A stretch of 64,000 bases of DNA from Myxococcales bacterium. GTDB taxonomy: Bacteria; Myxococcota_A; Polyangia; Polyangiales; Polyangiaceae. Shown piece after piece: positions 44,040 to 56,064 of this stretch (positions are counted from its first letter, which is position 1; every line of letters begins with the position of its first letter). The notes beneath the pieces are model-generated. The model had not been told where the DNA came from. It was given only the letters and a program-made list of their open reading frames with translations, and ran no database searches. The translations under genes and the position numbers were made by a program. The stretch spans positions 1-64,000 of the forward strand of contig CAHJWM010000021.1 in NCBI GenBank assembly GCA_903642325.1. Reading direction: 5' to 3'.

Positions 44040-45122
44040 TCAGTCCGAAGACTTGCCCGGCTCCCGCTTTTTCTTCTCGAGCTCGGGCACGACGCGAGCG
44101 ACGCGCTTCTGCACCACCTCTTTGACCATGCGCAAAAGATCGGTTTCGTTCGTGGTTTCCGAAAGCAGCCCGAGTGGAATGCGAAACCCGCCCATGTCCG
44201 CGCGGCCGCCGCCGTACGGCCGCCCTTGATTGTCGTCCCCGAACGCGTTCTGCATGAACAAAGCCGGATCGACGCTAGCGCGACTGGTGCGCAGCGAGCC
44301 GTCGATACGATCCTCTACGACGCCGAAAACGAGCACGGTATCGATGTCTTCTCGGCGCAGGATGAAGTCTGCCGCCATCGGAATAGCGTCACGGTTGTTG
44401 GCCGAAACGCGTCCAACCGTTGCGATCGCAAAGTCGCGTACGACCTCCAGATCCAAGAGGGAGCGACCCACGGCCTCCATCGACTCCGCCGTGAGAGTCC
44501 GACGGCCGACCCGGCTCAGCGTCTCCGCATCACAAAACGGCTTTAAATATGCGGCTGCGCGAAAGTCTGCGGGGGTGCCAAACGCGAAGTCGTCCGTATC
44601 GGTCTGGATGCCGAAGAACATCGCCGTGGCAACCGGACCGTCGTCGTTGCCTTCGGCGCCGAAGGGCGACAGGCCGCGCTCGGCGTATTCGGCGTAGATG
44701 GTGCACGTCGCCCCGACGTCATGGCGGATGTCGACGAAGCCTGCCTTGGGCACACTGGGGGGTCGGTGATGATCGACGACGGTCAACAGCTTCAGGCTCT
44801 CCGGCAGCTTGATGCTGGTTTCGCTCGCGCTAGCGTCGACCAACGCTAAGTACCCGTATTGCTCCAAGTCCGCCATATCGGACACCCGCACCATGGGCAC
44901 GTTGAGCAATTTCACCAACGCGCGATTCTCGGAGCGCGACAATGGCAACACGTGCGCAATGGTTGCTGATACGCCCATTCGTTCGCACAAGCGCTTGTGC
45001 GCGAGCGCGCTGCCGATTCCGTCAGGATCGGGATGACCCCCGAGCAAAATGACGTGTGGCTTGTCCGTCGCGCTTGCGAGCACGCGCTCGAGCTCTCCAC
45101 CCTTGTCAGGCTGATGACCCAT
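44040..45122 (-). CDS. DHH-family phosphoesterase, NrnA/oligoribonuclease-like
   Basis: A 360-residue enzyme. DHH motifs are present: ILLGGHPDPDGIGSALAHKRL near the N-terminus, LALVDASASE, and VVDHHRPP. The C-terminal DHHA1 region includes the Gly-rich GGGRADMGGFRI. These place it with NrnA-type nanoRNase or pAp phosphatases, or c-di-NMP phosphodiesterases. Which activity it has cannot be told. The ATG at 45122 is chosen since GGAG lies six bases upstream; an in-frame start at 45164 is weaker. A basic C-terminal tail (KKKREPGKSSD) is unusual. Confidence 0.85.
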   Translation of the reverse strand: MGHQPDKGGELERVLASATDKPHVILLGGHPDPDGIGSALAHKRLCERMGVSATIAHVLPLSRSENRALVKLLNVPMVRVSDMADLEQYGYLALVDASASETSIKLPESLKLLTVVDHHRPPSVPKAGFVDIRHDVGATCTIYAEYAERGLSPFGAEGNDDGPVATAMFFGIQTDTDDFAFGTPADFRAAAYLKPFCDAETLSRVGRRTLTAESMEAVGRSLLDLEVVRDFAIATVGRVSANNRDAIPMAADFILRREDIDTVLVFGVVEDRIDGSLRTSRASVDPALFMQNAFGDDNQGRPYGGGRADMGGFRIPLGLLSETTNETDLLRMVKEVVQKRVARVVPELEKKKREPGKSSD

Positions 45123-45328
45123 GGCGACTCCGTAGCTTATGTCTCGACCGCGGCGGAAGCCCAAGAACGGGAAATACCGAACTTGGGCTCGAGCTCATGG
45201 GCTTCTAACGGCCACTTATACGCCCAGGGTTATCGGCTCGCCCGGCCATTCGAAAATTCCGTTGAAATTCAACGAGTTAAAAACCTTGAAATCCGCTCTA
45301 GTTCCTCGAATGTCCCAAAAATCGGCCA

Positions 45329-46450
45329 ATGGGCGAGCGAGATGTACTATCCGATGACTCCGTGCAGTTCGAGGTACCCCAGTCCTGTTGCGCCCGAAAG
45401 TCTCGGAGCTTGCGCGACCTTAGCCTGAGGGTCAGTCAGTTCGCTGGGCTAGTAGTGCTGCTTGGCGGCGCCGCCTGCAAGCGCCCATCAACTACCGAAG
45501 CCAGCGACCGAAAATCTTCTGTCACTGCACGCGCTAGCGTTTCGGCGATGAGTGCAGCGCTGCCGAGCGCCTCTTCTGGCGCCGCCGGTGCTGCGCCTGC
45601 GGCCGATGCCGCTTCGAAGAGCGCTAGCTCGCCCTGCGGACCACGCTGTTATCGCTGGCTGTCGATGGAGCCGCCCAAGTACCCCGCCCCGGTCGACGTT
45701 CTGCAGGCGCGCTTCCCCACACCGCCGGGCTATCAGCGAGCGGCCGTTCCGCCCGGCTCCTTTGCGGAATGGCTACGCGGCTTGCCGTTGGCCGCGACTG
45801 GCACTCCCGTCCTGAACAACAACGGCGGCACGGTGTTCAGCGGCGACGACGAGTACGTCGCCGCCGTCGTTGCGATCGACGTCGGCGCTGGCGACTTGCA
45901 GCAGAGTGCTGATGCGGTCGTGCGCTTGAACGCGGAATGGCTCTGGGCGCAAGATGAACCAGGGAGAATCAGCTACCGCAGCGTCAGTAAGCTCGATATG
46001 CCGTTTTCACGCTGGGCCAAGGGCCAGCGCTTGATCGCTTCGGGGCCGAACGTGTTCTGGGTTTTGCAGAGCAAGCCCCGAGATGCGACGTACGCCGACT
46101 TTCGTCAATATATCGACGCCGTCATGTTGTGGACGAACAACATCTCGTTGGCTGCGCGCGCGACGCGCATCACAGATCCGAAACAGCTCGCCGCAGGCGA
46201 TTTCTTTTTGCAGACCCGCGGCAAGGGCCACGCGATTTTGGTGCTGGACGTGGCCGAGAAGCCGACCGGTGAACGCGTTGCCCTCCTTGGCCAGGCCCTG
46301 CAAAATCCGGCGCAAAGCTTCCACGTCATCCGTCCCGGCCGCGAAACCGCGTGGTTCAGCCTGCGTCCGCCCAATGCGTTGCTCACGCCTCGCTCCGATC
46401 AATTCTCGTGGGCCGAGTTAGAAAGACTCGAGCCGAAAAATGCGGACTGA
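45329..46450 (+). CDS. DUF4846-family lipoprotein
   Basis: A 373-residue lipoprotein. A hydrophobic segment SQFAGLVVLLGGAACK contains the lipobox GAAC, but the preceding n-region is ~34 residues long, so the true start may lie further in (a TTG near 45410 is possible). After a Ser/Ala linker, residues ~130-370 match DUF4846: RFPTPPGYQRAAVPPGSFAEWLRGLPLA, then VVAIDVGAGDLQQSADAVVRLNAEWLW and FWVLQSKPRDATYADFRQYID. The DUF4846 function is unknown. It is divergent from the DHH gene. Confidence 0.8.
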   Translation: MGERDVLSDDSVQFEVPQSCCARKSRSLRDLSLRVSQFAGLVVLLGGAACKRPSTTEASDRKSSVTARASVSAMSAALPSASSGAAGAAPAADAASKSASSPCGPRCYRWLSMEPPKYPAPVDVLQARFPTPPGYQRAAVPPGSFAEWLRGLPLAATGTPVLNNNGGTVFSGDDEYVAAVVAIDVGAGDLQQSADAVVRLNAEWLWAQDEPGRISYRSVSKLDMPFSRWAKGQRLIASGPNVFWVLQSKPRDATYADFRQYIDAVMLWTNNISLAARATRITDPKQLAAGDFFLQTRGKGHAILVLDVAEKPTGERVALLGQALQNPAQSFHVIRPGRETAWFSLRPPNALLTPRSDQFSWAELERLEPKNAD

Positions 46451-46602
46451 CGGGACTCGATGAGCGTTCAGCGTTGGCACGAAAAACGAGACTGGTTTAA
46501 CCAAATTTAGGCATTGTATTCCGATACTTATGCGCGTTGGCGGACTTCAATCACAAAACGGACTTGACGATTTTGCTCGCGAAGCGCACGTTTACGGAGT
46601 CG

Positions 46603-46734
46603 ATGAGCGCAGCGTTCTGCTCCCTGGCTTTTTCCAGCTCTGCTTTGCAGAGTGGCGTGAGCGTGTCCGGCGTCATCGTTGGTCTCGTCGTGGTCGAGCT
46701 CCGGCTTATTAGCTCGGGTGCGGTGGCCGGCTGA
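46603..46734 (+). CDS. Candidate ilv leader peptide
   Basis: A 43-codon frame from ATG 46603 (GGAG just upstream) to TGA 46732-46734. A shorter version could start at GTG 46657. Its 13-residue core VIVGLVVVELRLI (46672-46710) has ten branched-chain residues, with three consecutive Val codons at 46687-46695. Branched-chain residues make up 13 of the last 25. This is the hallmark of ilv/leu leader peptides, whose translation senses charged tRNA levels for those amino acids. The control codons sit just before, and overlap, the hairpin 46695-46716, and the stop lies 25 bases before the terminator stem. The peptide itself is not expected to have another function. Confidence 0.65.
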   Translation: MSAAFCSLAFSSSALQSGVSVSGVIVGLVVVELRLISSGAVAG

Positions 46735-46770
46735 CCTAAGAACTCAGCCAATCTCAAGGCCCCCGCACCC
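46695..46770 (+). promoter_or_regulatory. Protector and antiterminator elements of the ilv attenuator
   Basis: Protector hairpin: CGAGCT (46695-46700) with AGCTCG (46711-46716). Antiterminator: GGGTGCGGTGGCC (46716-46728) pairs with GGCCCCCGCACCC (46758-46770) at 12 of 13 positions. The downstream strand of the antiterminator is also the left arm of the terminator, so the two structures exclude each other. Ribosome stalling on the Val run would cover the protector left arm and free the antiterminator. Confidence 0.65.
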
Positions 46771-46791
46771 ATCGAGGTACGGGGGTTTTTT
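46760..46791 (+). terminator. Rho-independent terminator/attenuator before ilvB
   Basis: CCCCCGCACC (46760-46769) pairs with GGTACGGGGG (46776-46785) at nine of ten positions around a six-base loop. Six T residues follow at 46786-46791. It lies 76 bases upstream of the ilvB start and is interpreted as the attenuator of the operon. Confidence 0.88.
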
Positions 46792-46866
46792 AGTTTCAGC
46801 GCTCCGAACTTTCACTTTCTTCGTAAACAATAGACCGCAACGCGACAACGCGCCGAGGAGAATTTA

Positions 46867-48723
46867 GTGGCCTCACCGATGAAGAGCATGACAGAGCCCC
46901 GAGCTACGCCGATGGCGACAGATACCGAGTCTAGGGTAGAGACCCTGACCGGTTCTCAGATCATCTGGGACACGCTCGTTCATCAGGGGGTCTCCGTCGT
47001 CTTCGGTTATCCGGGCGGTGCAATCATGCCCGCCTACGATGCGATGCCGGGGTATCCGATACGCCATGTCCTGGTGCGCCACGAGCAGGGTGCGGCGCAC
47101 ATGGCCGATGGTTACGCGCGGGCATCCGGCGGCGTAGGGGTTTGTATCGCAACGTCCGGTCCGGGCGCCACCAACTTGGTGACGGGCATCGCCAACGCCA
47201 TGATGGACTCGATTCCGATGGTGTGTATCACCGGGCAAGTCTCTTCTACCGTGATCGGCAGCGATGCTTTTCAAGAGGTCGACTTCACCGGCGTGACCCT
47301 GCCCATTACCAAGCACAACATCCTGGTCACGCGCACCCAGGACATCATGCCGGCAATCCGGCAGGCATTTTACATCGCGAGCTCGGGTCGCCCGGGTCCG
47401 GTGGTGGTCGACATCACCAAGGACGCGCAGCAAGGAAGCTGCGAGCACCGTTACGACACGTCTCCGATCCGCCTGCCCGGTTATCGACCGGAGCACCACC
47501 CGGTGCCGGCGGAGATCGCCGAGGCCGCCGCCCTGATTGCCGCGGCAAAGCGGCCAATCATTTTCTGCGGACATGGCATCATCGAAGCCAACGCGACGGG
47601 TCTATTGCTCGAGTTCGTACAGAAGACGAGCTTCCCGGTCGCGCTCACGTTGCTGGGGTTGGGCGGGTTTCCCGCAACCCACCCCTTGAGCTTGGGCATG
47701 ATGGGCATGCACGGTGAAGCGTGGGTAAACACGGCGATTCAAGAAGCCGACCTGATTATCGCCATGGGCATGCGTTTCGATGACCGGGTGACCGGCAACC
47801 TGAAGACGTATGCTCAGAACGCCAAGAAGATTCACATCGAGCTCGACCCGGCCGAGATCAATAAAAACGTGAAGGTGGATTTGCCCCTGGTTGGCGACGT
47901 TCGCGAGATCTTGCGCATGCTGTTGCCGCAGGTTGCAAAGCGCAACTGTGACGTTTGGAATTCACACATCACCGAGCTGAAGGGCGACAGCGCCGTGCGC
48001 GAGATCCAGAGCTTGCCCGACAACGGCAGCCTGTTTGCGGCGCACGTCATTCACGATCTGTGGCGCTACACGCAAGGCAAGGCGCTCGTGGTGACGGACG
48101 TCGGCCAGCATCAGATGTGGGAAGCGCAGTACTACAAGCACGATCACCCGCGAAAGCTCTTGACCTCCGGCGGCGCGGGCACGATGGGCTTCGCGCTGCC
48201 CGCCGCGATGGGGGCGCGCATGGCGTGCCCGGACGACGAAATCTGGGTGGTCGTGGGCGACGGCGGATTTCAAATGACGGCCTGCGAGCTTGCGACCTGC
48301 GCGCAAGAAGACATCAAGGTGAACATTGCCATCATCAACAACGGCTTTTTGGGCATGGTTCGGCAGTGGCAGCAGTTTTTCTACGGCGGCCGCTACGTGG
48401 CGACGCCGATCAAGAGCCCGGATTTCGTGAAGCTCGCGGACGCGCATGGGCTGAAGGGCTTGCGCGTGACCAAGCGAGAAGAAGTGAAGGCCGCGGTGGA
48501 AGCCGCGCGCTCCTTCAAAGAGACCTGCATCATCGACTTCAGAGTCGAGCAGGAGGACAGCGTATATCCCATGGTGCCGGCCGGCGCTGACCTCGACAAG
48601 ATGATTCGCCGCCCGGTCCCCGTCGGGGCAATCTCCGAGCTACCGAGCGAGGAAGCGCCGGGGGAAGCACAGAAAGACGTGCCGCCCCACAATCCAATCT
48701 TCGAAACTGGCAAGGATCATTGA
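46867..48723 (+). CDS. ilvB: Acetolactate synthase, catalytic subunit
   Basis: A 618-residue ThDP enzyme. The catalytic Glu73 lies in VRHEQGAAHMADGYARASG. The N-terminal VFGYPGGAIMPAYDAM and the ThDP/Mg site GDGGFQMTACEL followed by INNGFLGMVRQWQQ are typical of AHAS catalytic chains. It condenses two pyruvates to acetolactate, or pyruvate with 2-oxobutyrate, the first common step of Val/Leu and Ile synthesis. Start GTG at 46867 has GAGGAG six bases upstream. It is the first gene of an operon with ilvN, leuACD, cimA and leuB and sits behind an attenuator-like leader. Confidence 0.97.
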   Translation: MASPMKSMTEPRATPMATDTESRVETLTGSQIIWDTLVHQGVSVVFGYPGGAIMPAYDAMPGYPIRHVLVRHEQGAAHMADGYARASGGVGVCIATSGPGATNLVTGIANAMMDSIPMVCITGQVSSTVIGSDAFQEVDFTGVTLPITKHNILVTRTQDIMPAIRQAFYIASSGRPGPVVVDITKDAQQGSCEHRYDTSPIRLPGYRPEHHPVPAEIAEAAALIAAAKRPIIFCGHGIIEANATGLLLEFVQKTSFPVALTLLGLGGFPATHPLSLGMMGMHGEAWVNTAIQEADLIIAMGMRFDDRVTGNLKTYAQNAKKIHIELDPAEINKNVKVDLPLVGDVREILRMLLPQVAKRNCDVWNSHITELKGDSAVREIQSLPDNGSLFAAHVIHDLWRYTQGKALVVTDVGQHQMWEAQYYKHDHPRKLLTSGGAGTMGFALPAAMGARMACPDDEIWVVVGDGGFQMTACELATCAQEDIKVNIAIINNGFLGMVRQWQQFFYGGRYVATPIKSPDFVKLADAHGLKGLRVTKREEVKAAVEAARSFKETCIIDFRVEQEDSVYPMVPAGADLDKMIRRPVPVGAISELPSEEAPGEAQKDVPPHNPIFETGKDH

Positions 48724-48731
48724 GGCAAACC

Positions 48732-49292
48732 ATGGCTCAAGGCGAATCGTCGACGCTGCGTCACTTCGTTGCCTACGTGGAGGATCAGCCCGGTGTTCTC
48801 AATCGAGTCACCTCGTTGTTCCGCCGCCGTTGCTACAACATCGTATCGCTCAATGTCGGTCGCACGCACGAGACCGGCGTCTCGCGCATGACTTTCGCGG
48901 TAGAGGCGGACGAAGACACCGCGCGGCGCATCGAGGCGAACCTATACAAGCTGGTCAATGTGCTCAGCGTCGAAGACATCACCGGCAAACCGAGCCTCAC
49001 CCGCGACCTGGCCCTAATCAAGGTCAATGTCGGCCCGGACAAACGCTCCGAAGTGCTGCAGCTATGCGAAGTCTTTCGTGCGCGAGCCGTGGACGTAGAT
49101 ACGGACACGCTGATCGTGGAAATCACTGGCGATCAAAGCAAAATCGACAAGCTCGTCGCCGTGCTGACGCCGTTCGGCATCGCCGAGATGGTGCAAAGCG
49201 GAACCGTGGCCATGACCCGTGGCACGAGAGGCGATGCCGCCAACGGCGCGGCACAACAACCACCCAGCTTGCGCACCATCGTCGCCGCCTGA
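48732..49292 (+). CDS. ilvN: Acetolactate synthase, regulatory subunit
   Basis: A 186-residue protein. The N-terminal ACT domain is clear (FVAYVEDQPGVLNRVTSLFRRR, then NIVSLNVGRTHETGVSRMTF). The C-terminal half (LALIKVNVGPDKRSEVLQLCEVFRA, IVEITGDQSKIDKLVAVLTPFGI) matches the IlvN/IlvH small-subunit C-terminal domain. It binds Val for feedback inhibition and activates IlvB. The ATG at 48732 has GAGG six bases upstream. The upstream TTG at 48720, which overlaps the ilvB stop, is less likely. Confidence 0.95.
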   Translation: MAQGESSTLRHFVAYVEDQPGVLNRVTSLFRRRCYNIVSLNVGRTHETGVSRMTFAVEADEDTARRIEANLYKLVNVLSVEDITGKPSLTRDLALIKVNVGPDKRSEVLQLCEVFRARAVDVDTDTLIVEITGDQSKIDKLVAVLTPFGIAEMVQSGTVAMTRGTRGDAANGAAQQPPSLRTIVAA

Positions 49293-49353
49293 ATTCGTTT
49301 GCCCCACATCACCGCTCTCGGAGTACCAGCAACCCAACCCAAGCAATGAACCC

Positions 49354-51057
49354 ATGACCAGCCCAGTTACGAAGTACACAAAACCACCTTCGGATTACGT
49401 GCGAATCTTCGACACTACGCTTCGCGATGGGGAGCAGTGCCCCGGTGCGACGCTTACGTCGGAAGAGAAGCTCGAGGTGGCTCGTGCGCTTTCACGCTTG
49501 GGTGTGGATGTGATCGAGGCGGGGTTCCCCTCGGCTTCGCCGGATGATTTTCAAGCGGTGCGGGAGATTGCGGACACGATTGGTAAAGAGCCCGTCGCCG
49601 GCCGACCCAGCAGCGAGCCGCCGATTATCTGCGGCTTGGCGCGCGCCACGGAAAAGGACATCCAAACCGCGTTCGACGCGGTCAGGGTCGCTAAATTCCC
49701 CCGGATTCACATCTTTCTCGCCACCTCGCCGCTGCACCGTGAGCACAAGCTGCGCATGACCAAGGAGCAGGTCATGGAGCGCGCGCGGGCGATGGTGACA
49801 TTCGCCAAACAGCTGTGCGCCGACGTCGAGTTCAGCCCCGAAGACGCGGGGCGGACCGAGCCGGATTTTTTACACGAGGTCCTCACGGCCGTAATCGAGT
49901 GCGGCGCGACCACGCTCAATATTCCCGATACGGTTGGCTATACGGTACCGGCCGAGTTCGGCGCGATCATCGACGGCATCATGAAGAACGTGAAAGGCAT
50001 CGAGAGCGTAGTCGTCTCGGTGCACTGTCACGACGACCTCGGGCTGGCCACCGCCAACGCCTTGGCCGGCATCGCCGCGGGCGCGCGGCAAGCAGAAGTC
50101 ACGATCAATGGCATCGGTGAACGTGCAGGCAACACCTCACTGGAGGAGGTGGTGATGGCGCTCCACACTCGTCAACCCATGTACGGCCTGCGCACGGGGA
50201 TCGACGCAGCCCAGCTCGTGCGCACCAGCCGTTTGGTCAGTGTTCGCACGGGCATGGTGGTTCCGCCGAACAAGGCCATCGTCGGTGCCAATGCTTTTGC
50301 TCACGAGTCAGGCATTCATCAGGACGGCATGCTGAAGCATGCGGGGACCTACGAGATCATGCGGCCGGAGACCGTCGGCGCGAGCAAGACATTGCTCGTA
50401 ATGGGCAAGCATTCGGGCCGCCACGCCTTTGGTGTACGCCTGAAGGAGCTCGGCCACGTCTTGGAAGGCGAGGCACTGGAGGCCGCCTTTCAACGTTTCA
50501 AGATCTTGGCCGACAAGAAAAAGCGCATCACGGACGCGGATCTGGAGGCGCTGGCCGCTTCGGAGGTTGCCCGCGGCGTCGAGTACTACGCGCTCGATGC
50601 GGTGCAGGTGACCTGCGGCTCGAACGGCATGCCGACGGCCACCGTGCGCTTACGCTGCCCAGATGGCGAGCTCCGCACGCAGGCCGCAATTGGCACGGGG
50701 CCGGTACACGCGGTGTTCACCGCGATCGATGAGATCGTGAACGCGCCGAGCGAGCTCGTCGAGTACACGATCAACGCCGTGACCGAGGGCATCGACGCGC
50801 TGGGACATGCCAGTGTCCACGTGCGCGCCATCGGCAGCGGCGAAGGCCGACTCAACGCTCAACACGGCAGCGGCGGCGCGACCATCTTGCATGGTCAAGC
50901 GGCAGACTCGGACGTCATCGTGGCCAGCACCAAGGCTTACCTCGGCGCGCTGAATCGGCTGCTGGTGACGCTCGGAACATTCGACAAACAAGCCGAGAAA
51001 TCGCAAGTGAACGAGAAATCGCAAGTGCGCGAGCAGACCACGGGAGCCGCGGAGTGA
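49354..51057 (+). CDS. leuA: 2-isopropylmalate synthase
   Basis: A 567-residue enzyme. The DRE-TIM metallolyase core starts [19 protein letters not shown]. Further along lie [41 protein letters not shown] and [12 protein letters not shown]. The C-terminal ~130 residues form the LeuA regulatory dimer domain ([20 protein letters not shown] onward), which binds Leu for feedback. It makes the first committed leucine intermediate. ATG 49354 is chosen since the family begins there; a minimal frame ATG-AAC-CCA-TGA (49346-49357) overlaps it (no Shine-Dalgarno site is visible). The stop overlaps the leuC region (GTGATCATG). Confidence 0.95.
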
Positions 51058-51059
51058 TC

Positions 51060-52466
51060 ATGGCAAGGACCCTATTCGAAAAGATCTGGAACGATCACGT
51101 CGTCGTAGGCGAGGCGGGGCGACCCGCGGTGCTTTACGTCGATCTGCACCTCATTCACGAGGTCACCTCACCGCAGGCCTTCGCCGGGCTTCGGGCCCGA
51201 GGCCTCAAGGTTCGGCGCCCGGAGCGCACCGTGGCCACGATGGATCATTCCACGCCGACCTTGCCCAAAGCGCTGCAGGTAATCGACGAGCAGGCGCGCG
51301 CGCAGCTTTCGCAACTCGAGAAAAACTGCGCCGAGTTCGGTATTCGACTGTTCGCGCTGGGCAACGACAAGAACGGTATCGTGCACGTGGTGGGTCCGGA
51401 GCGCGGCTTCACCCAGCCCGGCATGACCATCGTTTGCGGTGACAGCCACACCTCGACGCATGGCGCATTTGGCTCGCTCGCGTTCGGCATTGGCACGAGT
51501 GAGGTCGAGCACGTGCTTGCCTCGCAGTGCCTGCTGCAGTCACGGCCAAAGACGATGGAGGTACGCATCGACGGGACGCTCTCCCCCCTGGTCACGGCCA
51601 AGGACATCATCCTGGCCGTGATCGCCCAGATCGGCACCGGCGGCGGGACAGGCTACGTGATCGAATACACGGGAAGTGCGATCCGCGCGCTCGACATGGA
51701 AGCGCGGATGACCGTGTGCAACATGAGTATCGAGGCTGGCGCCCGCGCGGGTCTGATTGCGCCGGACGAGAAGACCTTCGAGTACGTGAAGGGCCGGGAG
51801 TTCGCGCCCGCGGGCGCGGCCTGGGACGCGGCGGTGGAGCGCTGGAAGAAGCTTCCGACGGATGCCGGCGCCACGTACGACACCTTGGTCACGCTCGAAG
51901 CGGACAAGATCGAACCGATGATCACGTACGGTACGCATCCAGGCATGGCCGTGCCCGTCACGCAGGCACTGCCGGCCGCGGCCGACTTCAGCGCCGGCTC
52001 GGAGCGGCAAGCGTTCGAAAAGGCCATGGTCTACATGGGTCTCGAGGGCGGTCACTCGTTGGTCGGGCAAAAGGTCGACGTGGTATTCGTGGGCTCGTGT
52101 ACCAATGGCCGCATCAGCGATCTGCGGCTTGCCGCCTCGGTGCTGAAGGGCCGTCACGTCGCCGTCGGGGTGCGGGTGTTGATCGTACCGGGCTCGCAAG
52201 AGGTGAAGCGCCAGGCGGAGGCGGAGGGCTTGGACCGGATCTTCACCGAGGCCGGCGCGGAGTGGCGCGAGGCCGGCTGCTCGATGTGCATCGCCATGAA
52301 CGGCGACCAGCTTTCGCCTGGCCAATACGCAGTGAGTACGTCTAACCGCAACTTCGAAGGTCGTCAGGGCAAAGGCGGTCGCACCTTCCTCGCCTCCCCC
52401 GCTACGGCCGCGGCTTCCGCCGTCACCGGTAAAGTCACCGACGTGCGCACGCTCGCCGCCGTCTGA
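51060..52466 (+). CDS. leuC: 3-isopropylmalate dehydratase, large subunit
   Basis: A 468-residue aconitase-family protein. Family hallmarks are present: [44 protein letters not shown], the iron-sulphur cysteines in [17 protein letters not shown] and [10 protein letters not shown], and [10 protein letters not shown]. With LeuD it isomerises 2- to 3-isopropylmalate. The ATG at 51060 has GGAG six bases upstream, and the start sits three bases beyond the leuA stop. The length is typical. Confidence 0.96.
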
Positions 52467-52485: not shown

Positions 52486-53082
52486 ATGGCAAGCTTTACC
52501 AAGATCACGTCCCACGCCGTCGTCATCCCTTCGGAAAACATCGACACCGATCAGATCATCCCGGCACGCTTCCTCAAGGTGCTGGATAAAGACGGGCTCG
52601 GGAAAAGCCTGTTTTGCGATTGGCGTTACCTGCCAGACGGCACGAATGTGCCCGATTTCCCGCTGAATTATGCGGCCTCCGAGGGCGCCCAGGTCCTGAT
52701 CGCAGGCGATAATTTCGGGTGCGGCTCCTCGCGTGAGCACGCACCCTGGGCGCTCGTGGGCTGGGGCATCCGAGTCGTGATTTCCACCTCCTTCGCCGAC
52801 ATTTTCAAGGGCAACTCCTTGAAGAATGGCCTCCTGCCGGTGGTGGTGAGCCAAGACATTCACCAAAAGCTGCTCGCCGCCCAAGCTGCCAATCCCAAGG
52901 CGCAGGTCACGGTCGACTTGGCGCAGAACCTGCTCACGCTACCGGACGGCTCGACCACGGCATTCCCGGTCGATTCGTTTGCCCAGCATTGCCTGCTGCA
53001 CGGCATCGATCAGCTTGGATACATTTTGTCCTTCGACGACAAGATCAAAGTGTTCGAAGCTGCCCATAGCTACGCAAGCTGA
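52486..53082 (+). CDS. leuD: 3-isopropylmalate dehydratase, small subunit
   Basis: A 198-residue protein. Signatures: [38 protein letters not shown] and [23 protein letters not shown]-type segments (here [19 protein letters not shown]). It pairs with LeuC in the isopropylmalate isomerase. The ATG has GAGGA eight bases upstream. It lies 19 bases after leuC in the same operon. Confidence 0.96.
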
Positions 53083-53105: not shown

Positions 53106-54776
53106 ATGAACGACGACAGTCCAGTCAACGGCGAGCCAGCGCTCGTGGAGGTTTACGACACGACCTTGCGGGACGGCACGCAGCGCGAGGGCATTTCGTA
53201 CACGCTGGAGGACAAGCTGCGCATCGCCGAACACCTGGATGCGTTCGGCGTCGCGTTCATCGAAGGCGGCTGGCCCGGTTCGAATCCGAAGGACGAGGAA
53301 TTCTTCGCGCGCGCCCGCGATCAGTCCTGGTTACACGCTAAAATCGCCGCCTTCGGCGCGACTCGGCGCGCGGGCCTCGCGCCCGAGGACGACCCGAGCT
53401 TGCGGGCACTGGTTGCCGCCGGCACGGAGGTTTGCACCCTCTTCGGCAAGACATCTACGTTGCACGTGACGGAGGTGCTGCGCACGACCCTCGACGAAAA
53501 TCTGCGCATGATCGAAGACTCGATCGCCTTCTTGCGCAGCGAGAAAAAGCGGGTCGTCTATGACGCGGAGCACTTCTTCGATGGTTATCGATTGGACGCG
53601 AGCTACGCGATCGAAACGCTGCGCGCCGCGATGCGTGGCGGCGCGGAGGTAATGGCGCTGTGCGATACCAACGGCGGCAGCATGCCCTGGGACGTACAGC
53701 AAATCGTGCGTGAAGTGTCGCACCTCGTCGGCCATCCATTGGGCATCCACGCTCATGACGACAGCGGGTGCGGCGTGGCCAACAGCATCGCGGCCGTGCG
53801 GGGCGGCGCGCGCCACGTGCAGGGCACGATCAACGGCTACGGCGAGCGCTGCGGTAACGCGAATCTTTCCGTGATCATCCCGAACCTCGAGCTGAAGCTC
53901 GGCTGCCGGGTGCTTGCTCCCGGTCGCTTGTCGGAGATCAGCGAGCTTTCGCACTTCGTGGCGGAGGTCGCGAACCTCGCGCCAGATGCGCACATGGCGT
54001 ACATCGGCAAGAGCGCATTTGCTCACAAAGGCGGCGTGCACGTCGCCGCCATGCGCCGGAACGCGGCTTCCTACCAACACATCAGCCCCGAGCTCGTCGG
54101 CAACGCGATGCGCGTGGTCGTCAGTGAGCTGTCCGGGCGCGGTAACGTGCTCGCTAAAGCCGAGGAGCTCGGCGTGCAGGTCAGCTCCGGGGTAGAGCTC
54201 GAGGCGCTGCGCGAAATCAAGGAGGCGGAGGCACGCGGGCTCTCCTACGAGGGCGCGGAGGCCAGTATCGCGTTGCTCCTGCGACGCAAGGCGGTTGACT
54301 ACGTGCCGCTATTTCAGGTCGTCGATTACCAGATCCAGGTCGGCAAGCGCCGCGGCACCGAGACCTTCGCCGAAGCGGTCGTCAAAGTGCAAGTCGGTAA
54401 GCAGACGCTGCACACCGCCGCAGAGGGCAATGGGCCCGTGAGCGCGCTCGACGCCGCGCTGCGTAAGGCGCTCGCGCCCTCCTACCCCGCCGTCAACGAC
54501 ATTCACTTGGCCGACTACAAAGTCCGTATCCTGGACGGCACGGAGGGCACGGGAGCCATCACGCGCGTCCTGATCGATAGCCAAGACGCCCACCGCAGCT
54601 GGAGCACCGTCGGCGCCTCTTCCAACATCATCGAAGCTTCCATGCACGCTCTTGTCGACTCGATCGAATTTGGCTTGATCCAGGGCTGCGCAGTGCTGCC
54701 CGATGGCCACCTAGTGAGTCGGCCCGCGCGGTCCGCCGGCGTAGCCCTGCCAAAGGCGGCCGCGAGCATCCGCTGA
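53106..54776 (+). CDS. cimA: (R)-citramalate synthase
   Basis: A 556-residue DRE-TIM enzyme that differs from LeuA. It begins VEVYDTTLRDGTQREGISYTL and has FIEGGWPGSNPKDEEFF, AFGATRRAGLAPEDD and VVYDAEHFFDGYRLD, which are features of the CimA/TIGR00977 group. IHAHDDSGCGVANSIAAVRGG is its HxH metal motif region. The C-terminus carries a LeuA-type dimer domain. It condenses pyruvate and acetyl-CoA to citramalate, which LeuCD and LeuB convert to 2-oxobutyrate for isoleucine. Its place between leuD and leuB fits this route. A homocitrate-type synthase is the alternative but less likely. Start ATG 53106 lacks a clear ribosome site. Confidence 0.9.
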   Translation: MNDDSPVNGEPALVEVYDTTLRDGTQREGISYTLEDKLRIAEHLDAFGVAFIEGGWPGSNPKDEEFFARARDQSWLHAKIAAFGATRRAGLAPEDDPSLRALVAAGTEVCTLFGKTSTLHVTEVLRTTLDENLRMIEDSIAFLRSEKKRVVYDAEHFFDGYRLDASYAIETLRAAMRGGAEVMALCDTNGGSMPWDVQQIVREVSHLVGHPLGIHAHDDSGCGVANSIAAVRGGARHVQGTINGYGERCGNANLSVIIPNLELKLGCRVLAPGRLSEISELSHFVAEVANLAPDAHMAYIGKSAFAHKGGVHVAAMRRNAASYQHISPELVGNAMRVVVSELSGRGNVLAKAEELGVQVSSGVELEALREIKEAEARGLSYEGAEASIALLLRRKAVDYVPLFQVVDYQIQVGKRRGTETFAEAVVKVQVGKQTLHTAAEGNGPVSALDAALRKALAPSYPAVNDIHLADYKVRILDGTEGTGAITRVLIDSQDAHRSWSTVGASSNIIEASMHALVDSIEFGLIQGCAVLPDGHLVSRPARSAGVALPKAAASIR

Positions 54777-54999
54777 ATGCGGACGAATTTTCGCGTTGGC
54801 CGTGCATGCCAGAGTCGGCTCCGCCGGCTCGGGTGACTTGCAATACTGGATCGAGGCCTGAGTCGAGCCAGTGTCGCACATGGGCCTCGAGGCCACTTCG
54901 GAGAGCGGCGGTCCGCGCAAAAGCCCGCTGGCTGGGCCACTTTTGCCAATAAATCGGGCACGTTTGGCCTCGCCGCTCAAATGCGACTATCGAGCGACC
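54777..54999 (+). other. Gap between citramalate synthase and leuB
   Basis: About 223 bases, longer than the other gaps of the operon. The leuB frame is open upstream to 54871 but that part is not family-like. No U-tailed terminator is visible, so read-through into leuB is plausible; a separate promoter cannot be excluded. Confidence 0.45.
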
Positions 55000-56064
55000 A
55001 TGAAAGCCAAAATCGTTCTTCTTCCAGGTGATGGCGTTGGGCCCGAGGTGACCGGTCAAGCGCGGATCGTGTTAGAGGCGGTAGCTCGAGGCGCCGGCCA
55101 CGAATTTTCGTTCGAGACGCAGTTGATCGGTGGCATTGCCATCGATGAGACGGGGGAGCCGTTGCCGCCCGACACGCTCGTCGCCTGCAAGGCAGCGGAC
55201 GCGATCATGCTGGGCGCGGTGGGCGGCCCGAAATGGGATGACCCCAACGCCAAAACACGCCCCGAAAAGGGCTTGCTGGCCATCCGAAAGGGCCTCGGAT
55301 TATTTGCCAACTTGCGCCCCGTACGCAGTTATCCGGAGCTGATCGACTCTTCCCCCCTGAAGCTCGAGCGCATTCAGGGCTGCAATATGCTGATCCTGAG
55401 AGAGCTCACGGGCGGCTTGTACTTCGGCAAGCAGTATCGGGAACAGACCGAGCGCGGCTTGAAGGTCATAGATACGCTCGAGTACATGGATTTCGAGATC
55501 GAGCGCATCGTACGTCTGGCTTTTGAGTTAGCTCGCGGGCGAACGAAAAAGCTGACTTCGGTGGACAAGGCCAACGTCCTCGAATCGTCTCGTGTGTGGC
55601 GTCAGGTGGCGACCCAGGTCAAAGCCGACTTCGCCGATGTGACGCTCGAGCACCAATTGGTCGACTCCTGCGCGATGCGCCTGGTGACAGCGCCGACCAG
55701 CTTCGACGTGATCGTGACGGAGAACATGTTCGGCGACATCCTTTCGGATGAAGCGGCGGTGCTCACCGGCTCCCTCGGCATGCTGCCGAGTGCCTCACTC
55801 GGAGAGGGCAAGCTTGGTTTATACGAACCGATTCACGGCTCCGCGCCAGACATCGCCGGCAAGGGTATCGCGAACCCTGTAGGCACCATCCTCAGTGCGG
55901 CCCTGCTGCTCCGTCACAGCCTCGGCCTCGAAGCGGAGGCGGCGTCGATCGAACGGGCCGTCGAGCTGGCCCTCGCCGCAGGGGCACGCACCAAAGACCT
56001 CGGCTCGAACAACCCGCTTTCCACGAGTGGCATGGGCGAGGCGATCCTCGCCAAGTTGAACTGA
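55000..56064 (+). CDS. leuB: 3-isopropylmalate dehydrogenase
   Basis: A 354-residue enzyme. It starts [17 protein letters not shown] and contains [18 protein letters not shown]-type sites read here as [24 protein letters not shown] and the signature [45 protein letters not shown] completes the NAD site. It oxidatively decarboxylates 3-isopropylmalate, and also methylmalate on the citramalate route. ATG 55000 is used since the family begins there. It is the last gene of the branched-chain operon. Confidence 0.96.

Follow-up and report, generated by a model that had tools for sequence, protein, structure and literature searches.

The genome of a Polyangiaceae bacterium (Myxococcota; GenBank assembly GCA_903642325.1, contig CAHJWM010000021.1) carries a branched-chain amino acid operon that begins with ilvB, and the region just before ilvB raises the question of whether a leader peptide controls the operon. 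Enterobacteria are known to control their ilv and leu operons by leader-peptide attenuation, and an initial annotation of this region, made from its letters alone, had proposed an attenuator here. We followed this up in a window of 64,000 nt (the whole stretch of DNA that was analysed, positions 1 to 64,000 of the contig), computing the leader open reading frame (ORF), its pairing alternatives, the logic of its stall positions, its conservation and a promoter-like pair. The anatomy first described is real, and its interpretation as a branched-chain amino acid attenuator is supported: we put the probability at about 0.9 that the region is, as its sequence predicts, a full ribosome-mediated (leader-peptide) transcription attenuator of the operon. 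Regulation by this leader in vivo is a prediction from sequence, pairing and conservation.

Leader, RNA arms and operon

The predicted promoter, the leader, its RNA arms and the operon genes are as follows.

46564..46569, + strand: predicted -35 element of the leader promoter, TTGACG, 39 nt before the leader start
46587..46592, + strand: predicted -10 element, CACGTT (weak match), with +1 expected near 46599
46603..46734, + strand: leader peptide ORF, 43 aa, ATG at 46603 and TGA at 46732-46734, read from the sequence
46684..46701, + strand: effective control codons CTC GTC GTG GTC GAG CTC (L V V V E L), from ribosome-masking folds
46692..46728, + strand: protector hairpin region in the minimum-free-energy (MFE) fold, containing the first-described 46695-46700/46711-46716 stem
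46716..46728, + strand: segment 2, the antiterminator 5' arm GGGTGCGGTGGCC, overlapping the last leader codons
46758..46770, + strand: segment 3 GGCCCCCGCACCC, which pairs with segment 2 and is common to antiterminator and terminator
46760..46791, + strand: intrinsic terminator (46760-46769 with 46776-46785) and T6 tract
46867..48723, + strand: ilvB, acetolactate synthase large subunit, first operon gene (TIGR00118, 745 bits; start GTG 46867)
48720..49292, + strand: ilvN (TIGR00119)
49219..51057, + strand: leuA (TIGR00973; profile match from aa 59-61)
51054..52466, + strand: leuC (TIGR00170)
52486..53082, + strand: leuD (TIGR00171)
53106..54776, + strand: cimA, citramalate synthase (TIGR00977)
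54871..56064, + strand: leuB (TIGR00169)

The gene names come from curated NCBIfam profiles, which agree with the ilvB-ilvN-leuACD-cimA-leuB order given initially; judging by where its profile match begins, leuA probably has its true start inside the listed ORF. The upstream neighbours are a DUF4846 protein on the same strand (45329-46450) and, encoded on the other strand, a DHH/DHHA1-type phosphoesterase-like protein (44040-45164).

The leader frame ending at 46734, its core VIVGLVVVELRLI with I, L or V at 10/13 residues, and the GTC-GTG-GTC run at 46687-46695 all hold on the sequence as first described. Across 54 leaders, the position of the I/L/V-rich C-terminal half relative to the stop codon is conserved.

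The alternative hairpins that had been proposed also hold on the sequence, and these are mutually exclusive because the antiterminator uses the 5' arm of the terminator (46760-46769). The antiterminator joins 46716-46728 to 46758-46770 with 12/13 pairs, and GGGTGCGG in its segment 2 is nearly invariant among homologues. In the terminator, CCCCCGCACC (46760-46769) pairs 9/10 with GGTACGGGGG (46776-46785), followed by six T (46786-46791). Against shuffles, the fold of 46710-46775 has a z-score of -4.9 (0/200 as good) and that of 46690-46795 one of -2.9; if the transcript ends before segment 4, the folded probability of the antiterminator is 0.92. The protector assigned to 46695-46716 stands only in part: CGAGCT (46695-46700) does pair with AGCTCG (46711-46716), but this 6-bp stem overlaps the antiterminator by the single base 46716 and is therefore a weak blocker by itself. 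The MFE fold instead uses the longer hairpin 46692-46728, which buries the whole antiterminator arm. Across homologues, the protector is only modestly better than shuffles (mean z -1.3) and is not strongly conserved.

Comparison of homologous leaders finds both the codon run and the alternative pairing kept. In 47/56 leaders the antiterminator pairs better than dinucleotide shuffles do (p<=0.05), and 92.9% of terminator cells are paired over 20 homologues (0/500 shuffles as high), with six cells changed on both sides. Covariation is clearer for the terminator than for the antiterminator, where it is modest; taken alone, covariation is limited, since each of the three arms is constrained by the others and the core hardly varies. 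In an equilibrium fold of the whole ribosome-free leader, the terminator has a probability of 0.29 versus 0.61 for the antiterminator, so termination by default would have to be kinetic or translation-dependent.

Predicted stalling and control codons

The ribosome is brought in by masking folds, in which the mRNA under and behind a stalled ribosome is removed and the rest is folded for each stall position, with three assumed footprints that extend 11, 13 or 15 nt downstream. Stalls at 46684-46701 give an antiterminator probability of 0.78-0.91 over the three footprints, in line with the initial proposal that stalling on the Val run would allow antitermination. At or after 46708 the antiterminator falls to <=0.15 and the terminator takes 0.69-0.89, while for stalls upstream of 46678 the terminator is favoured, sometimes only moderately (0.51-0.88). 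The codons whose stalls yield antitermination are Leu and Val codons, which would make these the sensors in this window. Joint sensing of Val, Leu and Ile, as first suggested, is therefore supported only in part: the antiterminating stall window leaves out the Ile codons (46675, 46708) or has them at its edge, and in these folds the sensed residues are mainly Val and Leu.

The predicted mechanism would run as follows, and in it we infer the transcription start site, the actual termination and the response to starvation. Transcription would start a few bases before the leader ATG, so that the leader is read from an mRNA with little or no 5' UTR. Under scarcity of charged Val- and Leu-tRNA, the ribosome would stall at the codons for L-V-V-V-x-L, the segment 2 immediately downstream would pair with segment 3 to form the antiterminator, and RNA polymerase would continue into ilvB-ilvN-leuACD-cimA-leuB. 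When these charged tRNAs are plentiful, the ribosome would reach the stop codon and cover segment 2, leaving segments 3 and 4 to form the terminator and transcription to end at the T6 tract.

The equilibrium masking model predicts such a stall window in 28/54 leaders; in these 28 relatives, I/L/V residues fill 188/312 positions in the window versus 140 expected (0/5000 shuffles). In most leaders that lack a stall window, the terminator is favoured wherever the ribosome stalls, perhaps because the actual choice of structure falls before the synthesis of segment 4.

The leaders also differ from ilvB in codon choice. Ile, Leu and Val codons of the run are shifted toward synonyms that are rare in ilvB: ATT makes up 0.68 of Ile codons in leaders versus 0.10 in ilvB, CTT 0.30 versus 0.03 of Leu codons, and GTA 0.18 versus 0.03 of Val codons. 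GC3 of the I/L/V codons is 0.59 in the run and 0.92 in ilvB; the remaining codons of the run's stretch have 0.79. Rare I/L/V synonyms are expected if translation of these codons is what matters, so the shift points to selection on their reading, but RNA folding may also disfavour G in this stretch and explain part of it. A theory of which codons render attenuators sensitive has reportedly been worked out (PMC1183508).

Promoter, relatives and rival explanations

According to the initial annotation, ilvB transcripts that start downstream of 46791 would count against an attenuator; what we find instead is a conserved promoter-like pair upstream of the leader. TTGAC lies 35-43 nt before an in-frame leader start in 49/56 leaders (36-43 nt in 47/56) and has the top count of all 1024 5-mers at that distance, with overlapping words (e.g., permuted CTTGA) next. 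In the 49 leaders, xAxxxT follows TTGAC at a spacing of 17 in 29 cases, 18 in 10 and 16 in 6, with <=4 cases at each other spacing. A promoter scanner found no leader promoter. The promoter placement implies a 5' UTR of 0-9 nt (mode 3-4), from which we conclude that translation of the leader probably begins at or very near the 5' end of a leaderless or almost leaderless mRNA; with a start near 46599, the GGAG ahead of 46603 would fall largely outside the transcript. The Streptomyces ilv, leu and trp leaders are established cases of leaderless leader peptides (PMC8079986), and the leader ORF of Sinorhizobium meliloti trpL starts at the mRNA 5' end (PMC7298713), so a leaderless start would be a shared feature and no new principle.

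The same architecture occurs at more than 55 myxobacterial loci, including Sorangium cellulosum. It precedes ilvB in all eight genomes of the genus (this one and seven others), and in the seven congeners the N-terminal half of the leader is variable while the I/L/V block is conserved. A covariance model built from 20 leaders also finds the element where ilvB is not first or where the element lies further upstream of ilvB, as in Sorangium cellulosum. Within the family, the element lies upstream of nearly all ilvB loci in the close IlvB clade (>=66% identity, 37 genomes); in one genome (G045) an assembly break puts it on a separate contig. The order, class and phylum also hold more distant examples, some with arms of quite different sequence (TTCGCGGGG/CCCCGCGAA, GCGGGGACCAG/CTGGCCCCCGC) and the same architecture. 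The claim of distribution is limited by the distant IlvB clade (45-50% identity), in which 0/29 loci have the element.

In its own genome, where it is the only such element, the model scores the ilvB leader at E 1.4e-23. The next place (C65, E 0.004) lacks an I/L/V leader and nearby branched-chain genes and was rejected, and no element was found before ilvC or ilvD of this genome (only 525 nt precede the ilvD match on its contig). Strong matches in six other genomes (G204, G133, G383, G233, G154, G399) were likewise rejected as initiator-tRNA-like genes with terminators and no I/L/V leader. Six loci in other Myxococcota (L189, L192, L193, L206, L208, L211) have an initiator-like tRNA-Met gene with a CCCCCGG hairpin terminator directly after it, a pair that mimics the attenuator model.

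Two variants were seen among the relatives. Five loci (L059, L062, L063, L064, L066) carry a second terminator-like hairpin and T tract between attenuator and ilvB, about 60-100 nt before ilvB, which is perhaps a second control point in that lineage. In Polyangiaceae ALOHA_ZT_49 (L037 / L123), a very I/L/V-rich leader is accompanied by a strong terminator whose sequence (AAACCTGCACCCC hairpin) is unrelated, and the antiterminator pairs poorly (p 0.19); this may be a version of different construction.

Three other explanations have to be weighed against the attenuator. One of them, very unlikely, keeps the leader peptide and replaces intrinsic attenuation with Rho-dependent termination or control of ilvB translation. 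T tracts are weak or interrupted in some relatives (e.g., L195, L197, L210, L218), and no clear terminator is seen in some actinobacterial leaders (PMC1262725). A strong hairpin with a T tract is, however, present in this window and in most relatives, and the ilvB ribosome site (GAGGAGAA, near 46856) lies ~65 nt past the terminator and outside the pairing. Changing the candidate control codons of a similar ilvB leader in Streptomyces coelicolor had no effect (PMC1262725), and this non-classical behaviour means that anatomy alone is no proof of mechanism.

A leader that binds tRNA or a metabolite (T-box, ppGpp riboswitch or other aptamer) and uses the terminator and antiterminator as its expression platform is very unlikely. 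T-boxes or ppGpp riboswitches are established as serving ilvB/leu operons in some other bacteria (PMC10272879), but no Rfam family (release 15) reaches its gathering score in the window, and the matches at E<=10 in 46450-46900 do not exceed chance. Moreover, the 5' part reads as an open frame whose N-terminal half is hypervariable, and the conserved positions are the I/L/V codons and the three arms.

Equally unlikely is a plain intrinsic terminator of the same-strand, unrelated DUF4846 ORF (ending at 46450), with a coincidental I/L/V ORF and an ilvB promoter further down: a terminator is indeed present, but it lies ~310 nt past the DUF4846 stop, separated from it by the leader ORF and the conserved promoter-like pair, the combination of ORF, antiterminator and terminator is repeated before branched-chain operons with different first genes, and a joint descriptor of terminator, antiterminator and I/L/V-rich ORF matches only the ilvB leader on both strands of the 64 kb window (one match) and gives one chance match in 1.2 Mb of reversed sequence.

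Known systems and operon heads

The leader-peptide attenuator predicted here follows the enterobacterial logic first invoked for it, but is equally close in likeness to the leaderless actinobacterial ilv leaders. With the enterobacterial ilvGMEDA, ilvBN and leuABCD attenuators it shares an I/L/V-rich peptide, an exclusive antiterminator and terminator, and genes of the same pathway. It differs from them in matching no Rfam family, in a predicted promoter that leaves the leader almost without a 5' UTR, in a segment 2 that overlaps the last leader codons, and in its operon (ilvBN-leuACD-cimA-leuB).

The actinobacterial ilvB leaders (Corynebacterium ilvBNC / ilvB-II motif, M. tuberculosis ilvB1, Streptomyces ilvL) likewise combine a branched-chain-rich leader with a terminator and antiterminator. 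Translation of the leader from leaderless or RBS-less mRNA is described for Streptomyces (PMC8079986) and, going by the title of Morbach 2000 as cited in PMC10272879, for Corynebacterium; attenuation has been demonstrated experimentally for M. tuberculosis (PMC13236596) and for C. glutamicum (PMC11857589). These leaders belong to a different phylum and are likened to ours by architecture, and the myxobacterial peptides are mostly 33-90 aa long versus 13 aa for Streptomyces IlvL. The proposed ilvB-OMG and Leptospira ilvB RNA motifs are also ilvB-associated leaders with branched-chain-rich uORFs (PMC10272879), but come from other taxa, and the window has no Rfam gathering-score match. S. meliloti trpL resembles our leader in having its ORF at the mRNA 5' end (PMC7298713), but senses Trp and belongs to another operon.

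Our literature search, which did not cover the surveys of Vitreschak 2004 and Lopatovskaya 2010, found no leader-peptide attenuator described for Myxococcota; an earlier deltaproteobacterial prediction is possible. The ilvB leader would work like known attenuators. Myxobacteria are major makers of natural products, and branched-chain precursors feed those pathways as well as branched fatty acids. The conserved set includes cultured strains (Sorangium cellulosum So0157-2, So ceGT47), which make the mechanism directly testable, and the myxobacterial leaders offer a test of attenuation on leaderless mRNAs outside Actinobacteria.

The element stands at the head of branched-chain operons whichever gene comes first: ilvB, ilvD, ilvN, leuA or cimA. 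In this genus ilvB follows it, while ilvD is first in other relatives, some of which then have a short KARI-domain gene and ilvB. Elsewhere it precedes ilvN-leuA-leuC-leuD-cimA-leuB (G129) or leuA-leuC-leuD-leuB (G055 and G056), and two congeners with a split operon (L199 in G072, L200 in G077) have a second copy before cimA-leuB. The control residues shift with the first gene, as sensing by codon identity predicts. For example, the G055 leader before leuA is Leu-rich, with a run that lacks Ile (HLLGLVLVLSLVEGAGC), and the leaders before cimA (G072, G077) read SGLIIGSGAAA, with control codons Leu-Ile-Ile and no Val; citramalate synthase feeds isoleucine. With two examples each, this match is suggestive support for sensing by codon identity and not proof.

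We lean slightly towards the view that one ancestral, nearly leaderless attenuator cassette runs the branched-chain pathway of Myxococcota, kept at the operon head through rearrangements and duplicated and re-coded (e.g., with Ile codons before the split-off cimA-leuB), so that codon identity alone would retune which amino acid each operon senses. The same cassette with different control codons before different genes forms a natural series. At three loci (L185:2059-2814, L186:1314-2168, L218:2396-3181), ilvB is immediately preceded by a gene for a protein of 251-284 aa in which only PF07991 (the N-terminal NADPH domain of ketol-acid reductoisomerase) was detected and the C-terminal domain was not, i.e., a half-length ilvC-like gene inside the attenuated operon.
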